Positions 1-14,380 of a DNA stretch of 14,380 nucleotides are shown here, one piece after another. Every line of letters begins with the position of its first letter. The stretch's first letter is position 1. Where the stretch lies: assembly GCA_016188575.1 (NCBI GenBank), contig JACPHN010000003.1, forward strand, positions 1 through 14,380, given 5' to 3'. Under the pieces are notes generated by a model that saw only the letters and a program-made list of their open reading frames with translations, was not told where the DNA came from and searched no databases. The position numbers were made by a program, and so were the translations under genes. Source of the stretch: Candidatus Schekmanbacteria bacterium. Lineage in GTDB: Bacteria; CSSED10-310; JACPHN01.

Positions 1-130
1 ACAATTAGAGAAAAAGACGCCAGCCTCCCAACGCCGCCGCCAGCCCCGTGGCGCCCGCGCGATCAATCGGCAAATCGCCAATCACGTGTCGGCCCACTTT
101 ATGTGAGCGAATGCGGCACCTATCTGGTGA

Positions 131-576
131 GCGTCGAAGGCTGGCGACCCCGTGGTTTCGTGGTCCCAGGAATGGCTGAACCCGACCGCCGCCGAGCTCG
201 ACATCTACCTGAAGCGCCGGGACGGCGAGAGCTGGCAGGAGGTAGACGGCTCGGCTACAGGCGGCGGGCTCAGCGCGACCTTTTCCGCGGACCCGAGCGT
301 CTGGGACGGGCAGTCGTATGGTTCGAGCGTGGCGCTGATGGCGGACGGCGGCCCGGCGGTCGCGTGGATGGACGAGATGTCGATGTCCTCGGGCGCGGCC
401 GTCTACTTCCGCGCCCACCACAATCCGCCCGAGGCTCACGGCGCGATGGCCCAGCTCGCGGCGGACGGGTTGACCGTAATCCCGGTTGGCGGCGTCACCG
501 GCAGCTCCGCCATCGTCTTCCGCGGCGCCTATCCGATGGCATCCAGCGGCGACGGCGTGCGCATGGACATCGGGTT
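131..576 (+). pseudogene. Surface protein piece 1: N-proximal domain, frame 2
   Basis: From 131 the meaningful reading is frame 2, with residues such as GDPVVSWSQEWLNP, LDIYLKRRDGESWQEVDG and SGAAVYFRAHH. Frame 2 has stops at 104 and 128, so upstream sequence must come from frame 1 (GPLYVSECGTYLVSVEG, open from base 1); a frame change near 139-145 joins them. Around 572-574 the sense moves to frame 1 (from GVRMDI to VAAAAGAFSG). The alternation of W and charged beta-strand residues suggests a beta-sandwich or propeller blade, but I recognise no named family. The GTG at 103 is not a credible start, because coding-like sequence continues upstream of it. Confidence 0.55.
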
Positions 577-2493
577 GCCGCGGCGGCGGGCGCGTTCTCC
601 GGAGCCGCCTCGAGCTCGTCGGCGGCGGGAAGCGCCGGCATGCCGGTCACGGTCACGCTTTCGGGTCTCGTCGAAGGCAGCTATCAGTGGCAAGCGCGCG
701 CGGCTGACGCATTCGGTCTCGGCAGCGCGTGGGAGGCGTTCGGCGGCAACGCCGCCGGTGACGTGGACTTCGCGATCGACCTGACTGCCCCGCCCCGGAC
801 GGCGCTGGCGGCACCGGCGAACGGCAGCGCGACGAGCGACCCGACTCCGGCGCTGCGCTGCGCGGCTAACGCGGACGCGGGCGGCATCCTGCTGTATGAG
901 GTCGCGGTCGCGGCCACGGCGGATTTCGCCGCGGTCATCGCGGGCGGCGGGGCTACCGAGCCGGAGCTGACGGTGAGCGCGGCGCTCGCGGACGGCACCT
1001 ACTACTGGCGTGCTCGCGCGCTCGACGTCGCCGGAAACGCGGGGGCCTGGAGCGAAGCGTGGACGTTCACCGTGGACACCGCGCCGCCCGCGCCCGTGTC
1101 GCTGGCGGCGCCCGCTGACGGCGCCATTCTCGCGACAGGGCAACCGACGTTGGTGTGGAGCGTGGGCGAAGCACCAGGCGGCGTCGGGCTCTACGAAGTC
1201 CAAATCGCAGGGGAAACCACGGAGACGGGAGAAGAGCAGCTTACACCGGGGACACCGCTGGCCGACGGGGCCTACTCCTGGCGCGTGCGGTGGCGCAATG
1301 GCGCGAGGCAGTGGGCCGAGTGGAGCGCCACGCGCGGCTTCACCGTGGACACGGTGCCGCCGGCACGCGTGGCGTTGCTCGTGCCGGCACCTGGCACGCG
1401 CCTGACCACGGAGCGGCCCACGTTCGCCTGGCGCGCGGAAAAGGCCACGCAGGCACAACCTCCCGAGCCCCCGCTCGCCGGGGGAAGCCGATCCTCTCCT
1501 CCCCCCCAAAAAGCGGGGGGAGGGTCCGGATCCACCGCCCCTTCGCCGTCGGCGCGACAATGTCCCCCTCCGCCGCCGATTCCGTGCGATCCGGACGGTC
1601 CTGGCCGCGATCACCCGGACGACCGCGTGGACGCCGCCGCGCTCGTCGCGGCCGCGCGGACCGTTTCCGGTGCGGGCGGACCCGCCGTGGCGGTGCTCGA
1701 CGCCGGGACCGCGCGCGGCATGCTCGAGGTTCTCGCTGATCGCTTTCTCGTGGCTCGAGTCGCGCCCGGCATCGCGGCCTCCGAGGTCCCCGCGCCGGTC
1801 CTCGTCGTACCTTCCGGAGCGCTCGCGCAGGTCGGGTCCTCGCCCGCCGTGGTGACGATGCCGCAGTCGTACGTCGACGCCGGCGGCACGCTCGTGGCTA
1901 TGGCGCAGCAGCGCGGCGCCGACCTCGCCTATCTGCCGGTGCCCGCCGGCAGCGCGCCGCTGGAGGGTCTCGGCTGGGCCGAGGATCAGAGTTGCTTCAG
2001 CGCCGCCGCCGAGGTGGGCGAGTGGCACCCCGTCCTGGCCAGCATCGCCGCCAACCCGGTCGACATCGCGCTGGACGGCTACTTTGTGCACGTCCCGGCG
2101 AGCACCACGGTCTTGCTGCGACGGGCGACCACCGGAGCGCCGGCGGTCATCGCCTATCCGGTCGGCCAGGGCTGGGTCGTGGCGAACACGACGTTTGCGG
2201 ACTGGGGCGCGGGGTATGGGCTGACCACGGCGCTGGAACGTGATCTGCTGGCGGCGACGGCGCGCATCGACCTGGTCGCGGGAGAGGTGGTCAAGATCGC
2301 GCCGGGCGCGGCCGGCGCGGTGGCGATTGCCGTCACGAATGCCTCCGAGACCGATGCCGTTGCCGCGGACGTGGTCCTCATTGCTCCCGGCGGGACGCTG
2401 CAGGAGCTGTCCCACGTCGGCCTCGAGCTGCCCGCCGGCGGCACCGTGACACTCACCGCGGACGTGCCGGCGGCAGCAGAGGTCGGCGTCTAG
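574..2493 (+). pseudogene. Surface protein piece 2: Ig/FN3 repeats and amidotransferase-like region, ends at amber codon
   Basis: Frame 1. From about 640 to 1430 there are three similar Ig/FN3-like repeats: a DTAPPAPVSLAAPADG-type start, a central W strand, and a LADGxYxWRxRAxDxAGN-type end with WSExWTFTVDT. From about 1620 to 2270 follows a region resembling class I glutamine-amidotransferase/ThuA-like folds (SYVDAGGTLVAMAQQRG, then GQGWVVANTTFADWGAGYG). No catalytic Cys-His-Glu triad is identified, so it is probably a structural or binding domain. A CARDB/NEW3-like repeat starts near 2275. The frame stops at TAG 2491-2493 in the context EVGV-stop-ELRAILTD, where the parallel repeat at 3655 reads CGVYQVTADLRD, so a tyrosine codon is expected. 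Residues encoded by about 1440-1615 are low-complexity and belong to an inserted hairpin region. Confidence 0.6.
1441..1615 (+). repeat. Hairpin-rich insertion inside the surface-protein gene
   Basis: Beta-repeat coding stops making sense after FAWRAEKAT and resumes at DDRVDAAALVAA. In between are two GC-rich hairpins. Hairpin A has stem CCCCCG/CGGGGG at 1468-1473 and 1479-1484 with a 5-nt loop. Hairpin B has a 9-bp stem at 1498-1506 and 1515-1523 around a CAAAAAGC loop. The reading frame is the same on both sides, so if this is an insertion its net length is a multiple of three or is compensated. It resembles dispersed intergenic REP-like hairpins. I see no clear target duplication, so the boundaries are approximate. 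Confidence 0.45.
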
Positions 2494-2496
2494 GAG

Positions 2497-2823
2497 TTGC
2501 GAGCCATCCTCACGGACGCGGAGCGACGGGCGACCGGACTCGGTACGGACGCGGAGCGACGGGCGACCGGACTCGGTGGGAGAGCCGCGTTCGTTCGCCA
2601 GACGCCTCCCACCCCGGTGGCGGCCTCCGACCTCGGCCTGTCCGTGCAGCTCGACCGCGAAAACTACGCGCCATACGACCGCCCGCTGGTCACAGCGGTG
2701 CTGATGAATCGCTCCGCGGCCGAGATTCCGCTGCACTTCGAGTACGGCCTGGCACACAACGACCTTGAGCGTAGCGCGATTTTCGGCGTCGGCGGAATGT
2801 GGTTTACACTTGCCGGAAGTTGA
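2497..2823 (+). pseudogene. Surface protein piece 3: CARDB-like repeat after the amber codon
   Basis: Frame 1 continues straight through after the TAG: ELRAILTD, two 11-residue insert copies, then DLGLSVQLDRENYAPYDRPL and FEYGLAHNDLERSAIF, typical beta-sandwich repeat sequence. The last native codons are ATT TTC at 2779-2784, inside the target duplication of the miniature element; what follows, up to the stop at 2821-2823, is transposon-derived. The TTG at 2497 is not a true start: this is the middle of a domain and there is no ribosome-binding site. Confidence 0.6.
2512..2577 (+). repeat. Two exact tandem copies of a 33-bp unit
   Basis: Two identical 33-bp units (2512-2544 and 2545-2577) begin ACGGACGCGGAGCG and end CCGGACTCGGT. 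The length is a multiple of three, so each adds TDAERRATGLG in frame. The peptide is basic and unlike the surrounding hydrophobic beta-repeat sequence. This suggests an inserted or expanded short repeat rather than native protein. Confidence 0.85.
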
Positions 2824-2956
2824 AGGCGGTGCGCCACCTGATAGGGGTAGGAAGGGCCGGTTACTCCCGGCCCTTCCTACCCCTATCAGGCAAGGCAGCT
2901 CCGAACGCCCAGCTTGTAAACGAGGAAACCCGACATTCGGCCGACGCCCGATTTTC
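2777..2956. mobile_element. Miniature inverted-repeat element with 8-bp target duplication
   Basis: A 164-bp element (2785-2948) is flanked by identical 8-bp copies of CGATTTTC (2777-2784 and 2949-2956). Its imperfect terminal inverted repeats start GGCGTCGGC, then GAATGT and, further in, TTTACA: GGCGTCGGCGGAATGT on the left, and GGCGTCGGCCGAATGT read inward on the opposite strand from the right. The centre is a perfect hairpin with 24-bp arms (2837-2860 and 2867-2890) and a 6-nt loop. It has no gene of its own, so it would need a transposase in trans. An 8-bp duplication is known for several families (for example ISL3, IS1595, IS66, IS256), and I cannot choose among them. Removing 172 bp (element plus one duplicate) rejoins frame 1 to frame 2 exactly: DLERSAIF-DGTVAAGS. 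It therefore inserted into a working reading frame. Confidence 0.88.
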
Positions 2957-3915
2957 GACGGCACCGTCGCGGCAGGCAGCACGGCAACCGCTACTGCCAC
3001 AGGCAACCCGGTGCGCCACCAGGGGTGGGCGATCCTGCGTTGCAGCCAGAGCGGCTCCTACGTCGGCTCGGCCTCCAAAGGGTTTTATATCACCGCGGAG
3101 CAGCTCGCGCTGGCGGCTTCCACCGACAAGAACATCTACGCCCGCGGTGAGTCGATCGCGCTCGATCTGCAGGTCGACAACGTCGGCCTCACCTCGTTCA
3201 CCGGCACGCTCCATTATGACATCCGTGGACCCCAGGCGGCGCTGCTGCAGAGCGAGGACATCCCGCTGACCGTGGCCGCCCGCACGAGCGAGACGACATC
3301 GCCGGTGGTCGCCGCATTCCCCGCGGACGCGCCCCTCGGGTCCTGGACGATCGCGGCCACGGCGAGCCGCGCGACCGGGAACGCGAAACTGGCCTGGACG
3401 GCGCGATCGGTAACCCTGGAGCAGGGTTTCGCGCAGCTCGCCGTGGAGCCCGAAGCCGGCTTCGCCGCCAACCCGGCGGTCGTAGTCTCGGTAGCGCCGC
3501 AACGTGACCGAGCCGTGCCCGCGGACACCCTCCAGGTCACGGTCGTGGATGGCGTCGGAAACGAGATCCTCGCCCACGAGGAGGCCGTGCCGGCGCTGAC
3601 GCCTGGCCAGTCGCACGAGACGACGGTCGCCGTGCCGCTTGCCACCCACGATTGCGGCGTCTACCAGGTCACCGCGGATCTGCGCGATGCGGCGGACGTG
3701 CCTCCGGGGACGCTGCGCTTCGTGGCCGCGGCGGACGCGAAGATCCGCTTCGCCGCGTCGAGCTATGTCCCCGGCCAGTCCGTCGCGGTGTCCGTGGCGG
3801 TGGCGAATACGGGAGACGTCGACGACACCTACTCGGTGACCCTCGGCGCGCCTGGCGCCGCCTTCAGCGAAACGCGGAGCCTCGCGATCGCCGCGGGCGG
3901 TGCCGGGGTCGCGGA
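2949..3915 (+). pseudogene. Surface protein piece 4: CARDB-like repeats, frame 2
   Basis: From ATT TTC in the second target-duplication copy, frame 2 carries IFDGTVAAGSTATATATG and then repeated beta-sandwich units: FYITAEQLALAASTDKNIY, SIALDLQVDNVGLTSFTG, LQVTVVDGVGNEIL, CGVYQVTADLRD and SVAVSVAVANTGDVDDTYSV. The VANTGDVDDTY-type phrases match CARDB/NEW3 (alpha-galactosidase-associated-like) modules in multidomain exported proteins. Sense is lost near 3915, where frame 2 turns into arginine-rich noise (DGRRRGPCG) while frame 0 takes over with GAAADLAVQLEAP. Frame 2 stays open to 5005, but beyond 3915 it is a shadow. Confidence 0.6.
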
Positions 3916-6490
3916 CGGGCGCCGCCGCGGACCTTGCGGTCCAGCTCGAGGCGCCGACGATCGACGCCCCGGGTCCGTTCACCATCGACTTTCTCGTCCT
4001 CAACCACGGCGATGTCTCCGGGACGACGGCGCTCTCGTACGATCTCGCCAGCACGGGCACGGCGAGCCAGGAGATCACCGTGCCAGCCGGCGGGGCGCGG
4101 CTCGTCTCTCTCACCGACGAGCTCTTTCAGGAGCGAGCCTACCATTTCGCGTTTTCGGGTGCCTACTCGGGGAGCTACGACCTGCAGCTCGCGCCGTTCT
4201 TCGTCGCCTGGGTGTCCTTTTTCCCCGACGGCTTCGCGCCGGCGCTGGCTCGGGACGAGGACGTCAGCCTGCCCGTCGAGCTGACGTGCCTCCGCCGCCA
4301 TTGCGATTTCGCGCTCGTCGCCGAGCTGACCGCCGGCGACGGCGCGGTTTTCGCGGGGACGCGGGCAATGACCATGAGCCCCGGCGAGGTCGAGCGCACG
4401 ACCGTTGCCGTCGCGGCGCCGGCTGGAGACTACGCGCTGAGCTGGCATCTGGATTCCGGCGACGGCGCCTCCTACTTTCCTGGCACGCTGGCCGGGAAGC
4501 TGCTGCTCGTCCGCCCGCGCCGGTCGGTCGTGCTCGAAGCGGGGACGGCGTGCGATGCCTGCACCCGGACCCCTGGTGCGGCGGCGGCGCGCCTCGGAGT
4601 CACCAACTTTGGCGCCGAGGCGTTCACCGGGCGTGTCGAGACGCATACCGGCAGCGGCGAGCTCGTGCATGCTCAGGAGCTGGAACCGCTCGCGCCGGGC
4701 GGATCGGCCTCGGTGAGCGTGGCGATCGAACTCACCGGCCAGCCCGCGGGCGCGGCAACGTACCCCGTGACGCTGCTCGACGAGGCCGGCACCGAGGTCG
4801 CCGCGGCGGCGCTGAGCTACGCGGTCGCCGGCGCGGCGCTGTGCGTGACCCGGGTCCCGGACGCCGTGGCGGCGACCCCCGAGGTCCCCGTCGCGCTGAG
4901 CTTCGCCGCCGAAAACCTCGACGATCGCGGCGCCGAGCTCGTGGCCACGGTTACGCTCGACGAGGTCGGCACCAAGGAGGCGCGCGCCGCGGCGGCTCCA
5001 GGTGAGACCGCGGAGGTGACCGTGGAGCTGCTCTTCCCAGCCGACATGCCGCCCGGCACCTACCACGGGTTCTACGAGCTAGCGGTGGCGGGCGGCGGAC
5101 CGCTCTTGCGCCAGGGGAGCGTCGCGGTTGAGGTCACCGGCGCGGGGTTGACCGTGGAAGCGACGCTGGACAAGGCCGCCTACAGCGCCGGCGACAGCGC
5201 CGCGGTGACGCTCGCGCTGGCGGCGGACGCCGGCGGGGTGTTGCCGGACGTCGTGGTGCGGGCGCAGTATGGGACAGCGGTCGCGTCGCGCGCGGTCGCG
5301 GGTGGCGACGCCGCCGCGGAGGAGATTCTGACCGTGGCGCTCGGCGATCTGGCCGAGGCGCGCCTCGCGTATGGAGTCTACTACGCCGATGGCCGCGCGC
5401 TCTGGCTCGGCACGCTGCCGATCCGCGCCGCCTCGGCGCAGGACTGGAGCGTGCGCGCGCTCGCGGACGTCGTTGCTCCGGGCGACGACCTGCGGGTGCG
5501 CGTCAAGGCCGAGGCGGGCACTGCCTACCCCCTGCACGCCTGCGGCGAGACTGTGGCCGGGAGCCTGTCAGGGTCCGCGGCCACCGAAGCGATCCCGGTG
5601 CCGCCGGCGTTCCCCTCAGGGACCTACGGTGTGGCCTTCGAGCTGACCTTCCCGGCGGGCGGAACGGCAAGCGGTGTCTGGTCGTTCGACGTCGCCGGGG
5701 CTTACCTGCGCGTCGAGCGCCAGGAATCCGACCGCGAATCCGCATCGGCGCTGGCATCGCCCGCCGCGCGCCGCGCCGCCCTGTCGAGCTATGCGCCCGG
5801 CGACCGGGTGGAAATGCGGCTCCTCTTCGTTTCCAGCGCTGCGGTCAACGATGCCGCCCTGCACGCGTGGGTGCAGGCTCCCGGCGCGGCGACCTTCGCG
5901 GTCGTCGAGGATCAACCGTTCGCGATCCCGAGCGGCGGGGAGGAGGTGCCGGTCGAGGAAACCCTGGTCTTCGCGATGCCCGACACCGGCGCTGCCAGGC
6001 CGCACCGCGTCGTCTACCCGGTCATCACCGGAAGCGGCGTGTTGCTCACGACCGGAGAGGAGGTCGTCGACCTGGCCGGAATCACGCCGGTTTCCGCGGC
6101 AGTCGAGCTCGACGACTACCCGCTCGCGACGGAGGCGGTCCGCGTGCTCGCGACGGGGATGGTGCACGGCGCCGGGTCGGTCGAGGTGTGGGAAGGCGAC
6201 GCGCTCCTGGCAACGGTGTCGGTTACCGGCGAGGGTGAGCAGCGGATCGCCCTGGAGCTGCCCACGCTGGCGCCTGGCGAGCACGTGCTGCGGGCTGTCT
6301 TCGTGTCGGGCACCCACCGCGAGGAGCTCACCGTCGTGCTCCAATACGGCACGGCGCTGTCGGACCTCTCGGTCGCGGTCGCGGTTTCGGCGCCGGTCTT
6401 CGCCGCCGGCGGGACGGTTTCAGAGAGCGCTTCAGCCGCGATCGCGGTGCGGAACGGCGGCGCCGGAGACGCTGACGAGGCGGAGCTGGT
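3915..6490 (+). pseudogene. Surface protein piece 5: long CARDB/beta-sandwich repeat array, frame 0
   Basis: This is the longest unbroken piece (about 860 residues). Repeats include DLAVQLEAPTIDAPGPF, FTIDFLVLNHGDVSGTTA, AARLGVTNFGAEAFTG, ALSFAAENLDDRGAEL, TVEATLDKAAYSAGDSAAV and AAIAVRNGGAGDADEAEL. Each has the shape 'beta strand, N/G turn, small-residue strand, gly-pro linker' expected of CARDB/NEW3-like Ig sandwiches. About 8-10 units fit the length; this is a rough estimate. I see no enzymatic motif, transmembrane segment or sortase/autotransporter signal in it. It ends near 6490, where ELVL runs into TSRRAAAAMKSW noise and frame 2 continues as LDVEAGGGGDEELARLAVPAL, which points to a single-base indel. 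Confidence 0.65.
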
Positions 6491-7069
6491 CTTGACGTCG
6501 AGGCGGGCGGCGGCGGCGATGAAGAGCTGGCGCGCCTCGCCGTGCCGGCGCTGGCCCCCGGGGAGACGGCGTCGTGGAACGTCGAGCTGGCGCTGCCTCC
6601 GGATGCGGGCGCCCGCGAGCTGATTGCGGTCGTGACACCCGGCGAGGCGACGCTGGACGGGTCGGCCGGTAACCACACCGCCTCGGCATTCTGGGCGGTG
6701 CCGTTGGCGCCGGTGCTCGCGGTGGATTGGGTCGACGCGGAAAATCCCTGGGCGGGTCTCGCGGCGAGCTGGCCGGCGGACGCCGGCGACGCCGGTCCGG
6801 CGAGTTACCTGGTCACCGTCCAGCGCGTCGAAACGGATGGCACGCTGGCGGAGGTAATGCCGGAGCAGAGCTTCGGGTCGGCGACGGAGACGGTGGTGAA
6901 CGAGGTTGATTGGCAAATGGGGCGGTCGTACCGGCTCGCGGTGCGAGCGCGAAACGCTCTGGGATTCGCCGGTCCGCCGGCGACATCGGCTCTGGTGAGC
7001 GTCGAAGCGCATATCGCGCGCGGGGACTTCGAGCGCCATACGACTATTGCGCCGGTGCGCGGCTTGTAG
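6490..7069 (+). pseudogene. Surface protein piece 6: last CARDB repeat and C-terminal FN3-like domain
   Basis: Frame 2 completes a CARDB unit (LARLAVPALAPGETASW, NVELALPPDAGARELIAVV). A fibronectin-III-like domain follows: LAVDWVDAENPWAGLAASW, YLVTVQRVETDGTLAE, then SYRLAVRARNALGFAGPPA, which is the usual YxxxVxAxNxxGxS FN3 closing strand. About 20 residues later, after ARGDFERHTTIAPVRGL, there is a TAG at 7067-7069. No C-terminal membrane anchor, LPXTG or PEP-CTERM-like tail is seen, so the native end may have been lost when the neighbouring RHS fragment arrived. The last 26 bases overlap the converging minus-strand RHS remnant. Confidence 0.55.
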
Positions 7070-7275
7070 CCAGGACTCGACTATTCGGGTGGCGATAGGT
7101 CGCACGGAAGCAGGTGCGGTGCGCCTCGTCGTAGGCCAGGGCGTGGCCCGCGGGATCGGTGATCTCGGTCAGCAGTCCCGCGGCGTCGTGGCGATACGCC
7201 GTCGCGTTGCCCACCGCATCGCGCCGCTCCGGCAAGCGCCCGGCCGCGTCGAAGCGCTCGCGCTCGCCGCCGGCA
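7044..7275 (-). pseudogene. RHS/YD-repeat protein fragment
   Basis: The minus strand reads ERERFDAAGRLPERRDAVGN followed by ATAYRHDAAGLLTEITDPAG, then HALAYDEA. These are about two and a half YD/RHS repeats (GxxxYxYDxxGxLxxxxDxxG), the building block of RHS polymorphic-toxin and teneurin-like shells. After YDEAHR the sense fades, and the frame stops at TAG 7044-7046. No core domain, VgrG/PAAR partner or toxin tip is present, so it is a scrap of roughly 55 residues and not a functional toxin. It begins directly after the stop of the propeller fragment at 7306 and in another frame, suggesting that it was the next gene on that strand or a rearrangement joint. Confidence 0.6.
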
Positions 7276-7305
7276 GCGGCCCGCCGTCCGGATGATCCGC
7301 CCCCG

Positions 7306-7486
7306 TCAATCGCCCGGCCGCACCCACCTGCCGACGATCTTCCGGTGCCCCGCAGGCCCGCTTTCCCATGCCACGAACAACTGACCAGAGGCGCTGACCG
7401 TCATGGCGAGCCCGGCTCCAAACCCCAGCAGCACGGGCCTGCTGAACTGCACATCGGTCTTCCGCTTGCGGCTGACCAATATGGAT
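7306..7486 (-). pseudogene. Stranded last blade of the interrupted beta-propeller gene
   Basis: The minus frame is open only from the REP palindrome edge: ILVSRKRKTDVQFSRPVLLG, FGAGLAMTVSASGQLFVAWE, SGPAGHRKIVGRWVRPGD, stop TGA at 7306-7308. It has no start codon context. Its pattern (ILVS ... P-V ... a short spacer ... FVAWESG) repeats that of the last blades of the protein at 10060-11130 (TILVSSDW ... VPVV ... VYVAWCESDG). This fits a final blade separated from the body of the gene by about 2.6 kb of inserted DNA. Same strand, correct order and a sensible C-terminus support this. Exact rejoining is uncertain: if the shared GTCAGCCG is simply collapsed the frames do not match, so a few bases were gained or lost. 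Confidence 0.65.
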
Positions 7487-7530
7487 GCCGGCCTTTAGGC
7501 CGGCGACATGTTTGGGCGGGGTTTGGACCC
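7487..7530. repeat. REP-type hairpin unit, left half of a doublet
   Basis: Perfect palindrome GCCGGCCTTTAGGCCGGC (7487-7504), then a spacer and GGCGGGGTTTGGACC (7515-7529). The same plan, hairpin followed by GGCGGGGTTT.GGACC, occurs at 10030-10056. Such hairpin-plus-conserved-tail units are typical of REP elements or IS200/IS605-derived ends. It marks the boundary where propeller coding stops. Confidence 0.65.
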
Positions 7531-7648
7531 ACTGGTTGCGCAACCCGGAAGCTGTGAGTGCCGGAGAATGCCTACGAAACCAGGCGCAGAGCCCCCGGAG
7601 GAGCCCTACGCCTGCGCAATGCTGACATCGGCGAGCCACGGTGGTCTA

Positions 7649-7678
7649 CTTCCCTTACAACCCCAAAAGTGAGGGAAG
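7649..7678 (+). promoter_or_regulatory. Hairpin covering the transposase ribosome-binding site
   Basis: CTTCCCTTAC (7649-7658) can pair with GTGAGGGAAG (7669-7678), 9 of 10 pairs plus one T-G wobble, around a 10-nt loop. The right arm holds the purine-rich GAGGGAAGG that would serve as ribosome-binding site for the ATG at 7683. A stem here would hide the site and dampen transposase translation, a known way insertion sequences avoid activation by outside transcripts. The role is inferred from position. Confidence 0.45.
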
Positions 7679-7682
7679 GCCG

Positions 7683-9996
7683 ATGTCCGAAACACGTGTA
7701 GTAGATTTTACCGCAAGGAGTGCGGCTCAGCGCCACGGTACAAGAGGAGCGGTGTCCGCCGCAGTTTCTGGCCGAGACCGGGGTGCTGGCGGAAGTGTGC
7801 CGGGGCAGAGGGCTGCTGGACAAGATCCAGAAGCAGGTCCATGTTCCACGAGGCCGGGCCGGAACCTACGAGATATGCGATTTTGTCCTGCCGCTGCTGG
7901 CCCATGCCGTCAGCAACAACCGGTATCTGAAGCATACCTATCAAGAGATGCAAGGCCATGAGGCGGTGCTCGCCGCACTGTGGGGTCGGCAGAACGTTCC
8001 CTCGCGCTCAGCCCTGTCGTGCTGGGCGGCGCAGGTGCCGCCCGCGGCCGTGGAAGCGCTCGGCAGCATTCTGTGGGCGGACTTGCTGGAGCACGGAGCC
8101 CGAGGAGATGTACTCGGGGGGGCTACGACCGGCTCGGGCAGCGCCATCTGCTCTTCGACATCGACGGCACCCGCCAGACAGGGCGCCGGCGAGCGCTGGT
8201 GCAGGGCCCGGAGTATCCGCCGGCGCGCAGGCGCCTCACCGAAAGCTGCGCTCGGGGCTGCAGTGGGCGCAAGCGCGGTGAGGTGGTTCGCAACCGCAGC
8301 GTGACACAACAAGCCCACAGCCGCGAATGGCTGGGCCTCGACGCCGCCCCCGGCAACGGAGAGCTGCTCGCGGAGCTCTCCAGGAGCTGTGAGCGGATCG
8401 ACGCCTATTTGCTCCATCACCAGCTCCAACCGGCTCAGGCGATCGTGAGACTCGATGGAGCTTATGGCCGCGGCGCCTCAGCGCAGATCCTGCGCGAAGC
8501 GGGAGTGGATTTCCTGCTGCGGTGTACGGATTATCGCCTGCTCGATGCGGTTTTGCAGAACGGCACGCTCCCGCAGCTCGAGCCCGAGCGCTTCGAGCCG
8601 GTAGACAGCAACGTAGCACGGCAGCTCTATGAGGTAGGCATGACCCACTGGCCGCAGGTGGTAGAGCCGCCCGATCCGCTCTTTGTGCGGCTCATCGTCA
8701 GCACGCGCCGGCCGCAGCAGGACGAGCGGCGCCGGCCAAAGATCGGAAAACGTGTCGGTTCGCTCATCTACGAGCTCTTCGCTACCAGCCTCCCACCGCG
8801 CGGGTTCATGGCCTCGGACGTGCTGAGCCTGTATCTGGGTCGAGGAGGCTTTGAGAGCACGTTATGGCAAGAGGATCTGGAGCAGAGCTCGGATCGTTGG
8901 GTCTTTACCCGCGGAGACGGAGAGGCCTTGTGGCAGGTGATCAACCAGTGGATCTGGAATCCTCGGCTGCAGTTGGGCCTCCTGGCAAAAAAACCAGCGC
9001 CGCGGTGCATCCTGTGGGCCGAAGCGCTCGCGTCTCGGCGGCCCGGACGCGAGCAGGACGAACCCATCGTGGACCTGCCGCCTGTCCCCCCGCCGCTGGA
9101 GCAGCACGGCGTCGCGCTTCCGCTGCCGGTGCTCGGCCAAAAGCCCTTACCTGCCACAACCGACCCACCCCAGCCGCGAGCGATTGGCTCGGCACCAGCC
9201 AGTGCGGCAGGCAGCTCAGCGGCACAACCTACGGTGCCGGCCTCCGCGGACTGCAAGCTCCAAGAAGCGGCTGCTTTGCCCCCGTCCCTGGAGACCCTCG
9301 CTACGGTAACTTCAGCCAATGGCCGGGGCGCTGGGCGCTTTGCCGCCGCGGACTTCACCTGGCGCGATCCGCGCACGCTGCTCTGTCCGGCCGGCAAGCC
9401 GCTTCGAGCCTCGGAGAGGCGAGCGCAGCCCGGACAGGAACGTATACGATTCGAGGCCCGGGCCGGCGATTGCCGCGCCTGTGCTCTGGCCCACAACTGT
9501 CTTGGCGGCGGTAGTAGCGGCCGGCGAGGCCGCCGCGTCAGTGTTGTCCCACCCCCACGGCGCTCTTCCAAGCTGCCAGGAGAGGTCTCATGCCAGGGTG
9601 TAGCGATGACGCCGAACGCTGCCGCCGAGCGCGCCTCTGTCTCGACCTCCACCGCGCCGGCCCGAGCCGCCCCGGCCCGACCCGCCCCAGCTCCAGGCCC
9701 CGCGCCCCTGCTGTGGGTCGACCTCCCTGCCGCCGCGCTGCGCCGCTTCCTGCCCGCGCTGCTGCTACTGCTGCGTTTCGACCTCGTTCCGCCGCTGGTG
9801 CCGCCGATCTCCCCAGCCCCTCCAGCTCCTCTTTCTCGCGCGCAAGTGGCTCACCGTCGCCTCACCTACCGAGCACAGGCTCCAGCGCAACGCCCTACCC
9901 CAGAACACCGTCGCGGGATCTATCTGCATTCACGGCCTGCCGGCATCGATCTCCGAATACCTTGCACAGCTCGGCCGGGAGCCGCGCGCCGCGTAA
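7683..9996 (+). pseudogene. DDE transposase of the IS4 superfamily, multiple frame changes
   Basis: Start chosen at ATG 7683 (MSETRVVDFTA), just after a strong ribosome-binding site. Sense then runs in frame 1 from about 7735 (QFLAETGVLAEVCRGRGLLD, YEICDFVLPLLAHAVSNN), briefly in frame 2 near 8100, in frame 0 from a run of seven G at 8116-8122, and in frame 1 again from about 9870 to the TAA at 9994. Catalytic acidic residues are visible in order: D in HLLFDIDGTRQT, D in AIVRLDGAYGRG, E in LYLGRGGFESTLWQEDLE (Y-x2-R-x3-E, as in the YREK signature, final K not conserved). A Pro/Ala-rich linker follows, then a Cys cluster (LLCPAGKPL, DCRACALAHNCLG) like the zinc-binding tails of some DDE transposases. 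About 770 residues if repaired. The frame changes mean no active product unless they are sequencing errors or the G7 is a programmed slip site. Confidence 0.72.
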
Positions 9997-10015
9997 ATCC
10001 CCTACTGGTTGCGCA

Positions 10016-10057
10016 TCTCCGCGGCGATTCCGCCCTGAAGGGCGGGGTTTCGGACCG
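10016..10057. repeat. REP-type hairpin unit, right half of the doublet
   Basis: Hairpin CCGCCCTGAAGGGCGG (10030-10045) runs into GGCGGGGTTTCGGACC (10041-10056), the same tail as in the left unit (7515-7529) with one extra base. With the IS and one 12-bp duplicate removed, the order is hairpin, tail, about 25 bp, hairpin, tail. That is a head-to-tail doublet about 100 bp long lying inside the propeller gene. Confidence 0.62.
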
Positions 10058-10059
10058 GC

Positions 10060-11130
10060 TGACGAAGGGATGAAAACTGGAGTGTCGTCCGTTCCGTCCG
10101 ACTCGCACCAGGCCACGTAAACCGCCCCGCGGTGGGCGGCCAACGCTGGCCCATACTTCCGCGTTGGCTCGGCGGCCGCCACCACGGGCACGGCGAAAAA
10201 ATCGGTGTTGCTCCAGTCGCTGGAGACCAGGATCGTGCTTTCGTACGCGATGCGATTCCAAGCGACGTGAACCGGTCCACTGGAGTCAGCGGCTACCACT
10301 ACGTTGGAAACATGAGCATCCATGTAATACATCACATTGACTACCATCGTATCTAGTTTATTCTTCTCCTTGCGCGCAATGAATACTCTGTTCCCGCGAA
10401 AGTCTCGCGTGTCTGTTGACCAGGCGAATACCGACGAGCCATCGGCAGAGATGTCAAAGCCGCCGATCTCAAATATATCCGCGATAGGATCTGAGATCTC
10501 CATCGTCTGCTTCCCAGGCGACATCGAAATGAAGCGAAGGCGTAGAGGCGGCATCAACCACTTGCTCTCGTAGATGGCGATCATCACGTCATTACCATTG
10601 CGAGCTCTAACCACCGGATACATGACGCCGTGCAGGTCTTCATTGAATGGCGCTTCAATATCCAAGTGATGCTCACGCAGCACGTTCATGGAAGACCCGG
10701 ACGCAACACCTATATATTCATGTCCGCTGTTGTGCTGCGTCCATGCTACGACAATCATTCCATCGCGGGATACGGATACTGATGGTGTAGATATTCGTCC
10801 TGGAGATAAATTGCCTATTGGCTTGTCTATGTGACCTACCGTGTCTTCATTAATTGTTGACATAAATACCTTTGAGTTATCCTTGTCTGATGTGGCCTCC
10901 CAAGCCGCTAATACAGACTCTTGGTGATTAGTAGAGGTGATTGAAACGCACGTGTTATCAATGTGGTCATGGTCCAGCGAAATCTCCAATACGTCTCCGA
11001 GCTTTGGGGACCAGGAAGGCTCTGATAATTGTATCTCCCTCGTCCCTGCTCGCACTCCAGTCGCGCAACTAAGGAAAATAACACAGGAAGCGGCTAACAG
11101 TATCCTGTTAGTTACTTGGAACATATCCAT
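10060..11130 (-). pseudogene. Secreted beta-propeller-like protein, main part, cut by REP/IS insertion
   Basis: Start at ATG 11130 (MDMFQVTNRI; ATG 11124 is the alternative). A signal peptide is clear: hydrophobic LLAASCVIFLSCATG, then VRA as a likely signal peptidase I site near residue 28. A lipobox reading at FLSC is weaker. The mature part has about six repeats carrying a V/F-x-A-W-type strand followed by a turn: LAAWEATSDKD (residue ~74), VVAWTQHNSGH (~127), IAIYESKW (~184), VFAWSTDTRDFRGN (~234), VHVAWNRIAYES (~287), VYVAWCESDGTDD (~337). The spacing of about 50 residues suits a six- or seven-bladed sialidase/BNR-type propeller. No Asp-box or catalytic set is obvious, so function is unknown. 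Native sequence ends near residue 357 (PVFIPSSA), where REP sequence begins; the seventh blade is at 7306-7486. The first two-thirds is distinctly AT-richer than all neighbours, suggesting foreign origin. Confidence 0.7.
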
Positions 11131-11444
11131 AGACTACTTCAAGGCAGCAGAATCTTAATCCTGGAGTACGTGGCCGCGCGCACGCAGTGACACCGGAGGA
11201 TCATTTTATCCTGAGCCAACACTGCTTTACGGCTACAAAGCCGTTCTTTTCGCCGTTGGCGTCCAGCAAGACATGCAGCGAATGATACGAAACATAGTCG
11301 TAAATAACTTTCCACATTCGCTACAAATCCGCTCCGCTCTGTCATTCGTATGTCGGGTTGATACAGCGCTCGGATTCGACGCCGTCCGCCCCGGCCTCGT
11401 CCGTCCTTTCGGCCGGCTCGCTCGAGCCGGGAGTGAGACCGCGG
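11131..11444. other. Intergenic stretch between propeller gene and group II intron
   Basis: I see no convincing gene here. Minus-strand frames are open but carry no recognisable protein; one holds an ICSECGK...RCMSC pattern that could be a chance zinc-finger-like string. It contains a perfect palindrome, CCGGCTCGCTCGAGCCGG stem-loop at 11413-11430 (7-bp arms, 4-nt loop). It also contains a small hairpin at 11229-11244. The upstream region and promoter of the propeller gene should lie here, but no confident -35/-10 pair is visible. Confidence 0.5.
11229..11250 (+). terminator. Weak intrinsic-terminator-like hairpin
   Basis: ACGGCT (11229-11234) and AGCCGT (11239-11244) form a 6-bp stem with an ACAA loop, followed by TCTTTT on the plus strand. 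The stem is short and no plus-strand gene ends just before it, so its role is doubtful. Confidence 0.25.
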
Positions 11445-11522
11445 ATAGGGGTAGGAAGAGACGGGTATTCCCCGTCTCCTCCCCCCTCCGAACCCAGCGT
11501 GCGGATCTCCCGCACTGGGCTC
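11445..11522 (-). ncRNA. Group II intron domains V and VI with 3' end
   Basis: Domain V (11490-11522): GAGCCCAG pairs with CTGGGTTC over 8 bp (one G-U pair), carrying the AGC catalytic triad in the 5' strand. The upper stem is TGCGG/CCGCA with a GAGAU loop, and there is the expected 2-nt CG bulge on the 3' side; 33 nt in total. Domain VI (11445-11489): inner stem AGACGGG/CCCGTCT, outer stem with GGGG facing CCCC, and a bulged A (complement of 11452) 8 nt from the end. The 3' terminus ...CCCCTAT obeys the AY rule. The spacing of bulged A and end is what branch-point chemistry requires. Confidence 0.82.
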
Positions 11523-11536
11523 TCCGGTTGGTGGTA

Positions 11537-11903
11537 TTACCTGCATGAGGATTGACGAGCCTTTGCATGGGCCGCGGCTAGTGAGAACAACCCATGTTCG
11601 GCAAAGAAGACATTTGGCCAGCGTTGATGATCACTTCCGCGCCCGCACCCACCACCGCCACGACGTTTGCGCAGAATGGACCGCAGGCGCATCCGTATCC
11701 AGCCGTCGAGCGACGGAAATGCGGTTTTGTAGCTATGCTTGAGGTTTTAAACCATCCTACCAGCGTTCGATTGACGTCGCGAATAATCTCCCCAAGGCTT
11801 TTTCCACTCGTACGACGTGTCTTCTCCCGAACCGCGTCCTTCAGCTTCCGCAGCCTCTTCTTCCGCGGCCAGCGATAGCCGCGTTCGAAGTGATAGCCCA
11901 GGG
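11537..11903 (-). pseudogene. Group II intron reverse transcriptase/maturase, C-terminal fragment
   Basis: Residues in order: LGYHFERGYRWPRKKRLRKL, KDAVREKTRRTSGKSLGEII, RDVNRTLVGWF; then, after a one-base loss near 11745 (TTT AAAAC CTC, where a GAA TAC-type pair is expected), LKHSYKTAFPSLDGWIRMRL, RSILRKRR, a GGGGCGRGS linker, DHQRWPNVFFAEHGLFSL and AAAHAKARQSSCR, stop TAA at 11537-11539. This is the thumb/maturase (domain X) and C-terminal end of bacterial group II intron-encoded proteins. The GWF-x2-h-KHSYKTAFPSLDGWIRMRLR and QRWPNxFFAEHGLFSL blocks are diagnostic. The polymerase palm with YADD is absent. It normally binds its own intron RNA to help splicing and target-primed reverse transcription. 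Here it is a fragment of about 120 residues. Confidence 0.85.
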
Positions 11904-11910
11904 TATGTGT

Positions 11911-12628
11911 TTACGTGGTAGGGGCCTCCGGCAGCTCTCTGGGGATTCCTCGCAGAATGGAGAGGTAGCTCCGCAGCAGCGGATAGACGTAGACCAGCTT
12001 CACCGGGGCGGCGCCCGGTTTGCCGCCCCACTTGCCCCGTCCCGCGGTTTCGCCCAGGAGGAGCCAGCTCGCGGCGCGCGGGCCGATAACCGTAGCGCGC
12101 CAGCCAGTCGGAGGGGAGCTGGCGCGCGGCTGAAGCGAGGACGTGAGAAGCGAGAAATTTCGCATGCATCCAAGGAAAAAGCAAGAAGCGGCTGTTGCCT
12201 CGATCCGTCATCATCAACCGCCGAGTGCGCAGAGATCGCAGAGAAACCTTCGATGGCGAGGACGTGTTGGTGCTGACGCTACCTAGGACGATGGGGCGCG
12301 GATCCCGCAGGGGTGCCGCGATTGCGGGTGGCGCCATGATTTCCTCCTGGGCGGGCAAGGCAGATGCGTTTCGCCGCTGCCAGACGCACCTGGGGGGCGG
12401 AAGCTCGATGACGCCTCCACGGTGGAGCTCCAACAACACGACCCGACAGGCGCGGTCCTTGGGATGGCCGTTGATTTGGCGCCACTCTAGCAGGCGGCAG
12501 ATTTCCAGTAAAAGCGCTCTGCGCGTCATCTGGGGCGGTGCGGCCAAAAGCTGTCGAATCGTCCGGATTTCCGTGGCAGCGAACAGTCGTCCCCGGAACG
12601 TATGTGGGAAGTCGTCGAGATTCATCAA
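11911..12628 (-). pseudogene. DUF4338 (DruA-type) protein, decayed
   Basis: Start ATG at 12625 (MNLDDFPHTFRGRLF); TTG 12628 is the alternative. The N-terminal part reads like the start of DUF4338 proteins: LFAATEIRTIRQLLAAPPQM, TRRALLLEICRLLEWRQING, HPKDRACRVVLLELHRGGVI, ELPPPR, a small helical DNA-binding-like module. After residue ~115 the core of the family is gone (no HYLG region) and a short-repeat insertion lies in its place. Family sequence returns at HAKFLASHVLASAARQLPSD, WLARYGYRPA, then skips about 25 residues and changes frame to ASWLLLGETAGRGKWGGKPG, KLVYVYPLLRSYLSILRG, stop TAA 11911-11913. DUF4338 occurs as DruA in Druantia anti-phage loci and also in insertion-sequence-like settings; no druB-E neighbours are present here. 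It is non-functional as read. Confidence 0.68.
12178..12310. repeat. Short-repeat insertion inside the DUF4338 remnant
   Basis: The minus strand holds CTCTGCGATCTCTGCG at about 12231-12246, two CTCTGCG units followed by GCACTCGGCGGTT. This is the familiar style of dispersed short repeats found between genes in many bacteria (CTCTGCG ... CTCTGCGGTT). Family-like protein sequence is absent from here to about 12310. I read it as a repeat that replaced or entered the gene; exact ends are not visible. Confidence 0.4.
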
Positions 12629-14309
12629 TACTAATGGTCCGCAATGAGGTGGGCGAGCTCGGTGGCGCCGGCCACCGACCTACTTCGGACGGAGAACGAC
12701 ACCGACAAGTCGGCCTTGCCCTCAGTGGCGCCGGCCACGAAGGTGCCGGCGGAGGGTTGCACGCGCGGCGCGGGCGCCCGGCCGCGGGCGGCGGCCATCT
12801 CTGGGCCGGAGGCGTCGATCCGCGAGCGATAGCGGACAGTGCGCGCCCCTGCAGGCTCGACCCTCGTGGCGCGTCAAGAAAGGTGCGAGGCTTACCCCCG
12901 CGCGCGACATTGGGCACGGGCAACCTCTGGTGCCGGCGGGTGGGGAAGCTCTGACCCTGGCAGGCACCAACACCCCCGCGGATGGTGGCAACAGCGCGAC
13001 ACGAATGGCCGAAAGGAAGGCGGTGGCAAGCGCCGCGGGGCTGCGGCGCGCGCGCCGGGAGCTCGGGAGCTGGCGAGGAACCCGAGGGAAGGATGGTAAC
13101 GTCGATCGGATCGAGCTCCTGCTCGCCCGCGGTGAGACCATCATCGGCGGGGGCCAAGCTCAGGCCCACGGCTGGAGACGATCCGCCAACCGCTTCACCT
13201 TGCTCGTCGCCACCCGGTGCTGGCGCGCTCTGCTGTGCCGCCGCGGGATGCTCCTGGCCGGCACGGTCGGCCGTATCGCCAGCGGCCCGCGATTCGCCGG
13301 CAGAGCCATCGCCCAGGGCCGGAGATAGCTCACCCGGGGGCGCGGCTGCCGATGAGCCCAAGAGCAGCGCCGGCGGGCGTTCGCCGCGGCGATGGGCAAG
13401 AAAGACCTGGCATAGCCATTCGAGAAGATCATCGTCGTGCTGCTGCAGGGTCATGATGACCGAGAAGGCACGTGCGACGAACCGGCATCCGCGCTCGCCG
13501 CGGGTGCCGTAGCAGAGCTTGTGAAAGATCACCAGGCAGCGCAGCGCCCGTTCGGCTTCGTTATTGGTGCGCGCAATCCCCTCGTCCTCGAGGAAACGCC
13601 ACGGGTGCAGATGGTTCTTGAGAAGGTTCTTGCCCAGGGCGCGGGCGCGGCGGTCGCCGCTGTCCAGGGCCGCGGTGAAGGCGCTGGTGAAGGCCGTGCG
13701 TAAGCCGGCCGTATGCTCGAGCAGGGTGGCGCGGTCGACCTCGCCGCGGCGAAATCGGTGCCAGTGGGCAAAAAACTCGCTGGTAAGCTGCAACAGTTGC
13801 ACGCCGATTGGCGCTCCCGGGCCGGCGGCCTCCACGAGAGCCTGAAAGTTGCGCTTGAGATGAGCCCAACAGTAGGCCAGTTTGTCATGACGGCGGTAGG
13901 CCCCGTAGCGATCGCAGATGATGACGCCCGGGAAATGTGCGCCGAGAATCTCGCCCAAGACGCTGCCTCCGCGCGTCTTCGCGAGCCGATACAGCGTGAC
14001 CTCGGAGGTGCACGCCACCCACACCCACATCCGCTCCAGACCCAGGCGCCATGTCGTTTCATCAATATGGACTGCCGCGCTTGCGCGCACGTGCTCCTCG
14101 AGCTGCCGATAGGGGTCCGCCAGCGCTTCTCCGGCCTGCAGGCACACGTTTTCGATAGTTCCCAGCGAGATTTCCACGCCGAGGAGCCAGCTCAGCTCTT
14201 CCTGTACCTTGCGACGAGTGAGTCGACTGAGGACGACCAAAAGAACGATGACCACCTGGAGTCGAGGACCAACAGCCTGGCAGGCTTCAGGAGAAAGCTC
14301 CGCGAGCAC
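12279..14309 (-). CDS. tnpC: IS66-family TnpC transposase, 5' part beyond an amber codon and window edge
   Basis: DDE transposase. With residue 1 at GTG 14309, the helical region RLTRRKVQEELSWLLGVEIS is followed by the three acidic residues: D83 in VHIDETTWR, D133 in VIICDRYGAY, E251 in RTNNEAERALRCLVIFHK. The conserved C-terminus reads FSVIMTLQQHDDDLLEWLCQ and ends at about residue 318 (13355). The real protein starts upstream: RLHRCICAKCGRRV at 14310-14348 is the zinc-binding segment, preceded by TAG at 14349-14351 and then PKVGVQTVQ, so the window shows a broken 5' part. Beyond 13355 an Ala/Pro/Ser-rich tail is plausible to about 13050. The frame then stays open by composition to 12279, even running under the DUF4338 remnant on the same strand, and I do not believe that portion. 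Left end and TnpA/TnpB are outside the window; no right inverted repeat was found. Confidence 0.8.
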   Translation of the reverse strand: MLAELSPEACQAVGPRLQVVIVLLVVLSRLTRRKVQEELSWLLGVEISLGTIENVCLQAGEALADPYRQLEEHVRASAAVHIDETTWRLGLERMWVWVACTSEVTLYRLAKTRGGSVLGEILGAHFPGVIICDRYGAYRRHDKLAYCWAHLKRNFQALVEAAGPGAPIGVQLLQLTSEFFAHWHRFRRGEVDRATLLEHTAGLRTAFTSAFTAALDSGDRRARALGKNLLKNHLHPWRFLEDEGIARTNNEAERALRCLVIFHKLCYGTRGERGCRFVARAFSVIMTLQQHDDDLLEWLCQVFLAHRRGERPPALLLGSSAAAPPGELSPALGDGSAGESRAAGDTADRAGQEHPAAAQQSAPAPGGDEQGEAVGGSSPAVGLSLAPADDGLTAGEQELDPIDVTILPSGSSPAPELPARAPQPRGACHRLPFGHSCRAVATIRGGVGACQGQSFPTRRHQRLPVPNVARGGKPRTFLDAPRGSSLQGRALSAIARGSTPPAQRWPPPAAGRPRRACNPPPAPSWPAPLRARPTCRCRSPSEVGRWPAPPSSPTSLRTISIDESRRLPTYVPGTTVRCHGNPDDSTAFGRTAPDDAQSAFTGNLPPARVAPNQRPSQGPRLSGRVVGAPPWRRHRASAPQVRLAAAKRICLARPGGNHGATRNRGTPAGSAPHRPR
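12631..12895. other. Unassigned stretch, open on both strands
   Basis: No recognised gene. The minus strand from about 12880 to TAG 12631-12633 reads RATRVEPAGARTVRYRSRID, ASGPEMAAARGRAP, TFVAGATEGKADLSVSFSVR, SRSVAGATELAHLIADH. The plus strand from ATG 12644 is also open for 62 codons. Third positions coincide on the two strands, so GC at third positions cannot decide between them. AGTGGCGCCGGCCAC-type sequence occurs twice in direct orientation (about 12662 and 12726). It may be the flank of the IS66 element or a small gene fragment. Confidence 0.35.
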
Positions 14310-14380
14310 GCGCCTGCCGCACTTTGCGCAGATACAGCGATGCAGGCGCTATTGCACCGTCTGTACCCCCACCTTCGGAC

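Follow-up and report, generated by a model that had tools for sequence, protein, structure and literature searches.

Bacterial type II MITEs have only their terminal inverted repeats in common with a parent insertion sequence (IS), as exemplified by QMITE1 and QMITE2 of Coxiella and Chunjie of Geobacter (PMC10969869). Such families can also be associated with a second mobile element or intron: in Thiomargarita nelsonii, the "MITEtron" consists of a MITE lying within a group I intron (PMC4853749), and IS1111 uses QMITE2 as a target (PMC10969869). Group IIC introns, for their part, insert next to the stem-loops that terminators or attC sites form (PMC4424553, PMC7923331). We analyzed 14,380 nucleotides of a Candidatus Schekmanbacteria genome (contig JACPHN010000003.1, positions 1 to 14,380; here called the window) and found that the 164-bp element at 2785-2948 is a MITE with a core that points to an association of a further kind, between MITEs and group II introns.

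The initial annotation had described 8-bp duplicates (CGATTTTC) around a 164-bp element with inverted ends and a hairpin with 24-bp arms, and every part of this description is exact in the window (Table 1). The 16-bp terminal inverted repeats (TIRs) match at 15 of 16 positions, and when the element was folded as DNA, the z score was -9.4, with 0 of 200 shuffled sequences folding equally well. No promoter- or terminator-like site was detected within the 164 bp. The subterminal TTTACAC is a possible candidate for a motif bound by the transposase.

Table 1. Features of the MITE insertion and of its host gene (window coordinates)
Feature	Positions	Strand	Remarks
Damaged host gene, part 5' of the insertion (frame 1)	2497..2784	+	
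Left target site duplication, 8 bp, CGATTTTC	2777..2784	.	Single site in the C162 paralogue
164-bp MITE, subfamily A, intron-derivative form	2785..2948	+	Full second copy at C184
Left TIR, GGCGTCGGCGGAATGT	2785..2800	+	End motif 138 times in genome, 0 in control
Subterminal TTTACAC	2803..2809	+	Common to the left ends of most subfamilies
Perfect hairpin, loop TTACTC (6 nt)	2837..2890	.	Arms 2837-2860 and 2867-2890
46-bp palindrome, intron derived: two domain VI 3' ends, tails outward	2841..2886	.	Rfam RF00029, junctions and reconstruction
Right TIR, GGCGTCGGCCGAATGT	2933..2948	-	Right-end motif matched 165 times in genome, 7 times in control
Right target site duplication, 8 bp, CGATTTTC	2949..2956	.	
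Damaged host gene, part 3' of the insertion (frame 2)	2957..3858	+	Large secreted protein, judged by its paralogue

As the initial annotation had stated, exact excision restores the host reading frame: removal of 172 bp joins frame 1 up to position 2784 (...DLERSAIF) to frame 2 from position 2957 (DGTVAAGSTATA...). The insertion is confirmed by an independent sequence, since the genome also contains a paralogue without the interruption (C162; 77% identity on both sides of the insertion), which retains the exact empty site. In place of the 187 nt in the window, the paralogue has 15 nt and is thus shorter by exactly 172 nt; at this point it reads ...HNDSSRTVIFDDTVSAGSTATATATGNP, with a single target site and without the element. 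The accompanying claim that the MITE had entered an intact gene found no support, because the host gene bears several further lesions relative to the intact paralogue. Its start region has been lost near 1433-1570, there is a TAG stop at 2491 where the paralogue has TAC, ~36 bp around 2520-2570 are absent from the paralogue, and a deletion of ~490 bp near 3860-3915 has fused the gene to the next one. The extra ~36 bp after the TAG (window 2491-2570) include a tandem repeat of GGACGCGGAGCGACGGGCGACCGGACTCGGT. The MITE is one among several host gene lesions.

We searched the whole 9.2-Mb assembly, which is 94% complete and in which many contigs end within these repeats. The left-type TIR pattern was found 138 times (with up to 3 mismatches) versus 0 times in a reversed-pattern control, and the right-type end pattern was found 165 times versus 7 times in the control; from these end matches, we estimate that there are about 150 relatives in the genome. 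The 89 two-ended copies that we read are 87 to 300 bp long and belong to at least five subfamilies (A, 116, 164, or 184 bp; B, 88 or 150 bp; C, 208 bp; D, 152 bp; E, 127 bp), which have nothing in common beyond their ends and, in most cases, a subterminal TTTACA. Target repeats with 0 or 1 mismatch flanked 28 of 63 two-ended copies versus 0.5% of shuffled pairs, and repeats with up to 2 mismatches flanked 43 of all 89. The duplication has an A+T-rich core and a length of 8 bp only, with a positional agreement of 0.59 to 0.73 that fell to near background at 5 to 7 and 9 to 12 bp. The elements are thus recognizable as MITEs by their inverted repeats, fixed-length duplication, short length, lack of a transposase gene, and multiple copies, and the prediction in the initial annotation of a non-autonomous, multicopy family with several copies in differing 8-bp duplications was borne out. 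That no transposase was found for the element might be taken to mean that it is not mobile DNA at all and is instead a REP-like structured repeat or an indel, with the direct repeat arising by chance, but we give this almost no credence: the census refutes it through the differing 8-bp duplications at many sites, the inverted ends had 0 matches in the control, and the empty site in the C162 paralogue counters it as well.

A second complete 164-bp copy (C184:30238-30401), ~95% identical to that in the window, has its own duplication, ATATTTTC/GTATTTTC; these two and a one-sided copy in C52 are the only examples of the 164-bp form in the assembly. Because it occupies two sites with different target duplications, the hairpin-bearing form has probably moved since its formation. 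Elsewhere in the genome, MITE ends stand back to back exactly 8 bp apart (C194:94385/94394 and C235:123302/123311), as if one element had inserted at the target duplication of the other. Another kind of miniature element, bounded by CCACGAGTTGCGC/GCGCAWCTCGTGG, is present on C223 (L037 ~2530-2690), C106, C124, C76, C141, and C158, where it sits inside intron domain VI or MITEs, the C223 copy apparently with a 5-bp duplication, TACTC. Two short sequences in the window, 10018-10073 (recurring at ten or so other loci) and 7474-7530 (recurring at ~4 other loci), are also probably miniature repeats.

Outside this genome, the TIR pattern had no match in 97 other genomes, 7 of them from the same phylum, and none in viral contigs, plasmids, or phages. 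A scan across 84,980 species, which may omit the genome itself and very near ones, returned one match only, in Planctomycetota; it lies inside a sulfatase-like gene and was rejected as a chance match. As far as these scans reach, the MITE family is new and genome specific.

No transposase in the window carries matching ends, in agreement with the initial annotation, and a full-length IS with such ends, which had been proposed as confirmation, was found nowhere in the assembly. An autonomous IS was found neither beside unpaired ends nor as a long end pair, an absence that is not proof in an assembly that breaks at repeats. The ISL3, IS256, and IS1595 families make 8-bp duplications; their transposases are absent from the 94%-complete assembly, and derivation of the MITE from any of the three was rejected. 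When 61 reading frames adjoining unpaired ends were scanned against Pfam, 60 families were matched, and the 25 most frequent of these include no transposase. A fragment on C108, which by eye we take from its sequence to be IS5-like, looks like a separate insertion. The 1,465-bp segment C177:85460-86924 (L046 2461-3925), with a perfect 8-bp duplication, was considered as an autonomous copy and rejected, as it consists of a MITE, an intron 5' fragment, and a gene. That gene has no significant Pfam match; similar copies on C239, C161, C177, and C53 (87 to 96% DNA identity) were not found between MITE ends. Because many contigs end within these repeats, the partner may be unassembled, unbinned, or lost, and because no autonomous partner was found, we leave the transposition mechanism unnamed.

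IS66 elements also produce 8-bp duplications, and IS66 transposase genes are present in the genome, including one in the window (12279-14309), so the IS66-type transposase might be thought to move the MITE family. However, the IS66 copies, that in the window included, are not flanked by the MITE end motif, the sole match with 2 mismatches near an IS66 copy is an ordinary subfamily B MITE end, and the MITEs lack the ends in common with an IS66 element that IS66-derived MITEs would have. We therefore regard this assignment as improbable. The IS66-family transposase gene of the window (12251-14380, minus strand) is 91% identical to the copy on C140 and is cut by the contig end.

Outside the two-ended 164-bp elements, the hairpin sequence is part of a longer repeat that contains domains V and VI of a group II intron (Rfam RF00029). 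In the MITE-borne copies C55, C81, C264, and C194, the matches reach up to 56.8 bits over the full model (1-77), and the last base of RF00029 is the first base of the 46-bp hairpin core. The repeat has domains V and VI with the branch-point A and the 3' terminus, by which group II introns are recognized. Furthermore, both borders of the 2841-2886 palindrome coincide with intron/3'-exon junctions of other copies: the intron 3' end abuts the left MITE module in C55 and C194, the right MITE module in C81, C127, and C264, and a subfamily C MITE in C207 and C263, and the same 3' end occurs at non-MITE sites in C140, in C145, and at window position 11445. On this sequence evidence, each hairpin arm is the 3'-terminal domain VI of a group II intron and neither is native to the MITE, a point missed in the initial annotation. 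Since the intron targets stem-loops and the hairpin is itself a stem-loop, one might argue the converse, that the hairpin was original to the MITE and that the intron inserted beside it and either captured or resembles it. This is highly improbable, however, as the arms are identical to the intron 3' end and are placed inside the intron by Rfam, the same 3' end is found at the three non-MITE sites, and the ~184-bp and 116-bp copies have other cores or none.

Intron 5' ends (GTGCGCCTGCGAGCG...) lie directly after stem-loops, and in 6 of 10 cases, the stem-loop belongs to one of these MITEs (C60, C61, C192, C202, C177, and C128). Sequences such as GCGGGCCGGAGGCCCGCGCACC and GGGGCGCGATGAATCGCGCCCCTG terminate the 5' exons, and insertion directly 3' of a stem-loop is characteristic of group IIC. 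We infer that the intron has the stem-loop target habit of class IIC, a class assigned from target choice only because the encoded protein was not recovered; across the assembly, only a fragment at window 11749-11850 matches a maturase domain. Two minus-strand segments of the window, 11445-11632 and 11749-11850, are left over from a group II intron of this kind, with an RF00029 match of 55 bits to domains V and VI at 11445-11524. Intron 3' ends fall within MITEs in 8 of 13 cases, while MITEs make up ~0.1 to 0.2% of the genome, although these copies are not independent because introns may travel with MITEs. The intron has used at least three distinct stem-loop sites, and in different copies of the ~184-bp subfamily A cores, it is found at both stem-loops, in opposite orientations with the 3' ends outward. 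In the open-access literature, our coverage of which is incomplete, we found no description of MITEs serving as target sites for group II introns. On balance, we lean toward the view that MITE stem-loops are the main landing sites of the intron and that the remains of collapsed or failed insertions are reused as ribozyme-derived cores of new MITE forms that are mobile in turn.

The hairpin-free 116-bp copies (C271 and C147) and the ~184-bp copies with two stem-loops (C81, C162, and C250) fall into one alignment. When the C55 and C81 junctions were joined at their shared 7-mer, CCGGCCC, the core in the window was reproduced exactly (46/46), and joining of C55 and C127 at CCGGCCC predicted the 164 bp with 5 mismatches. 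Very probably, then, the MITE moved in trans, its core arose by deletion between two outward-facing introns, and the derivative transposed into the gene in the window. In the sequence of events that we infer, a transposase making 8-bp target duplications would have moved the family in trans, ancestral subfamily A MITEs would have been ~184 bp long with two stem-loops in the core, and the group II intron would have retro-inserted beside both stem-loops in opposite orientations. One MITE copy would have received introns at both, 3' ends outward, and a deletion between the two direct CCGGCCC 7-mers in their domain VI sequences would have removed all that lay between, leaving a 46-bp perfect palindrome between MITE ends. 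This new 164-bp form, retaining both ends, could then have transposed, with one copy landing in the gene in the window. The postulated MITE with two introns is on no single contig, because contigs break inside the repeated intron.

The palindrome might instead have come from a single intron if, during cDNA synthesis or replication, domain VI was copied by snap-back and the template was switched at the shared CAGG. The self-complementary domain VI stem GGGCCGG/CCGGCCC could prime copying of this kind, and a CAGG lies to either side of the hairpin; yet snap-back requires two switch events where a deletion between two introns requires one step, and both natural intron-MITE junctions are present in other copies. 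We consider snap-back tenable but unlikely and favor the deletion between two introns.

To our knowledge, the origin of MITE cores without likeness to a parent IS is usually unknown, and at this locus the probable making of one core, that of a bacterial MITE subfamily, can be followed base by base. A further suggestion is that stem-loop-targeting introns may find safe sites in abundant MITEs, something that could be counted in other genomes. If insertions are indeed recycled, one mobile element builds its successors from the debris of another. Like type II MITEs, the elements described here are short and noncoding, with inverted ends, fixed-length duplications, and copies that number in the tens to hundreds, some of them truncated and some inserted in genes; unlike them, they combine at least five unrelated cores with one end, have no identified parent IS, and include a central hairpin that is intron derived. 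The intron resembles group IIC introns in that its 5' ends directly follow G+C-rich stem-loops and its domain V/VI matches RF00029 to the 3' end, but its class is inferred from target choice, and many of its target stem-loops belong to MITEs. As with the MITEtron and QMITE2/IS1111, a MITE family is associated with another mobile element or intron. However, whereas the MITEtron is a MITE in a group I intron and QMITE2 harbors an IS, in the present genome the MITEs contain group II introns, and in contrast to both, intron remnants appear to have joined a MITE form that moved.
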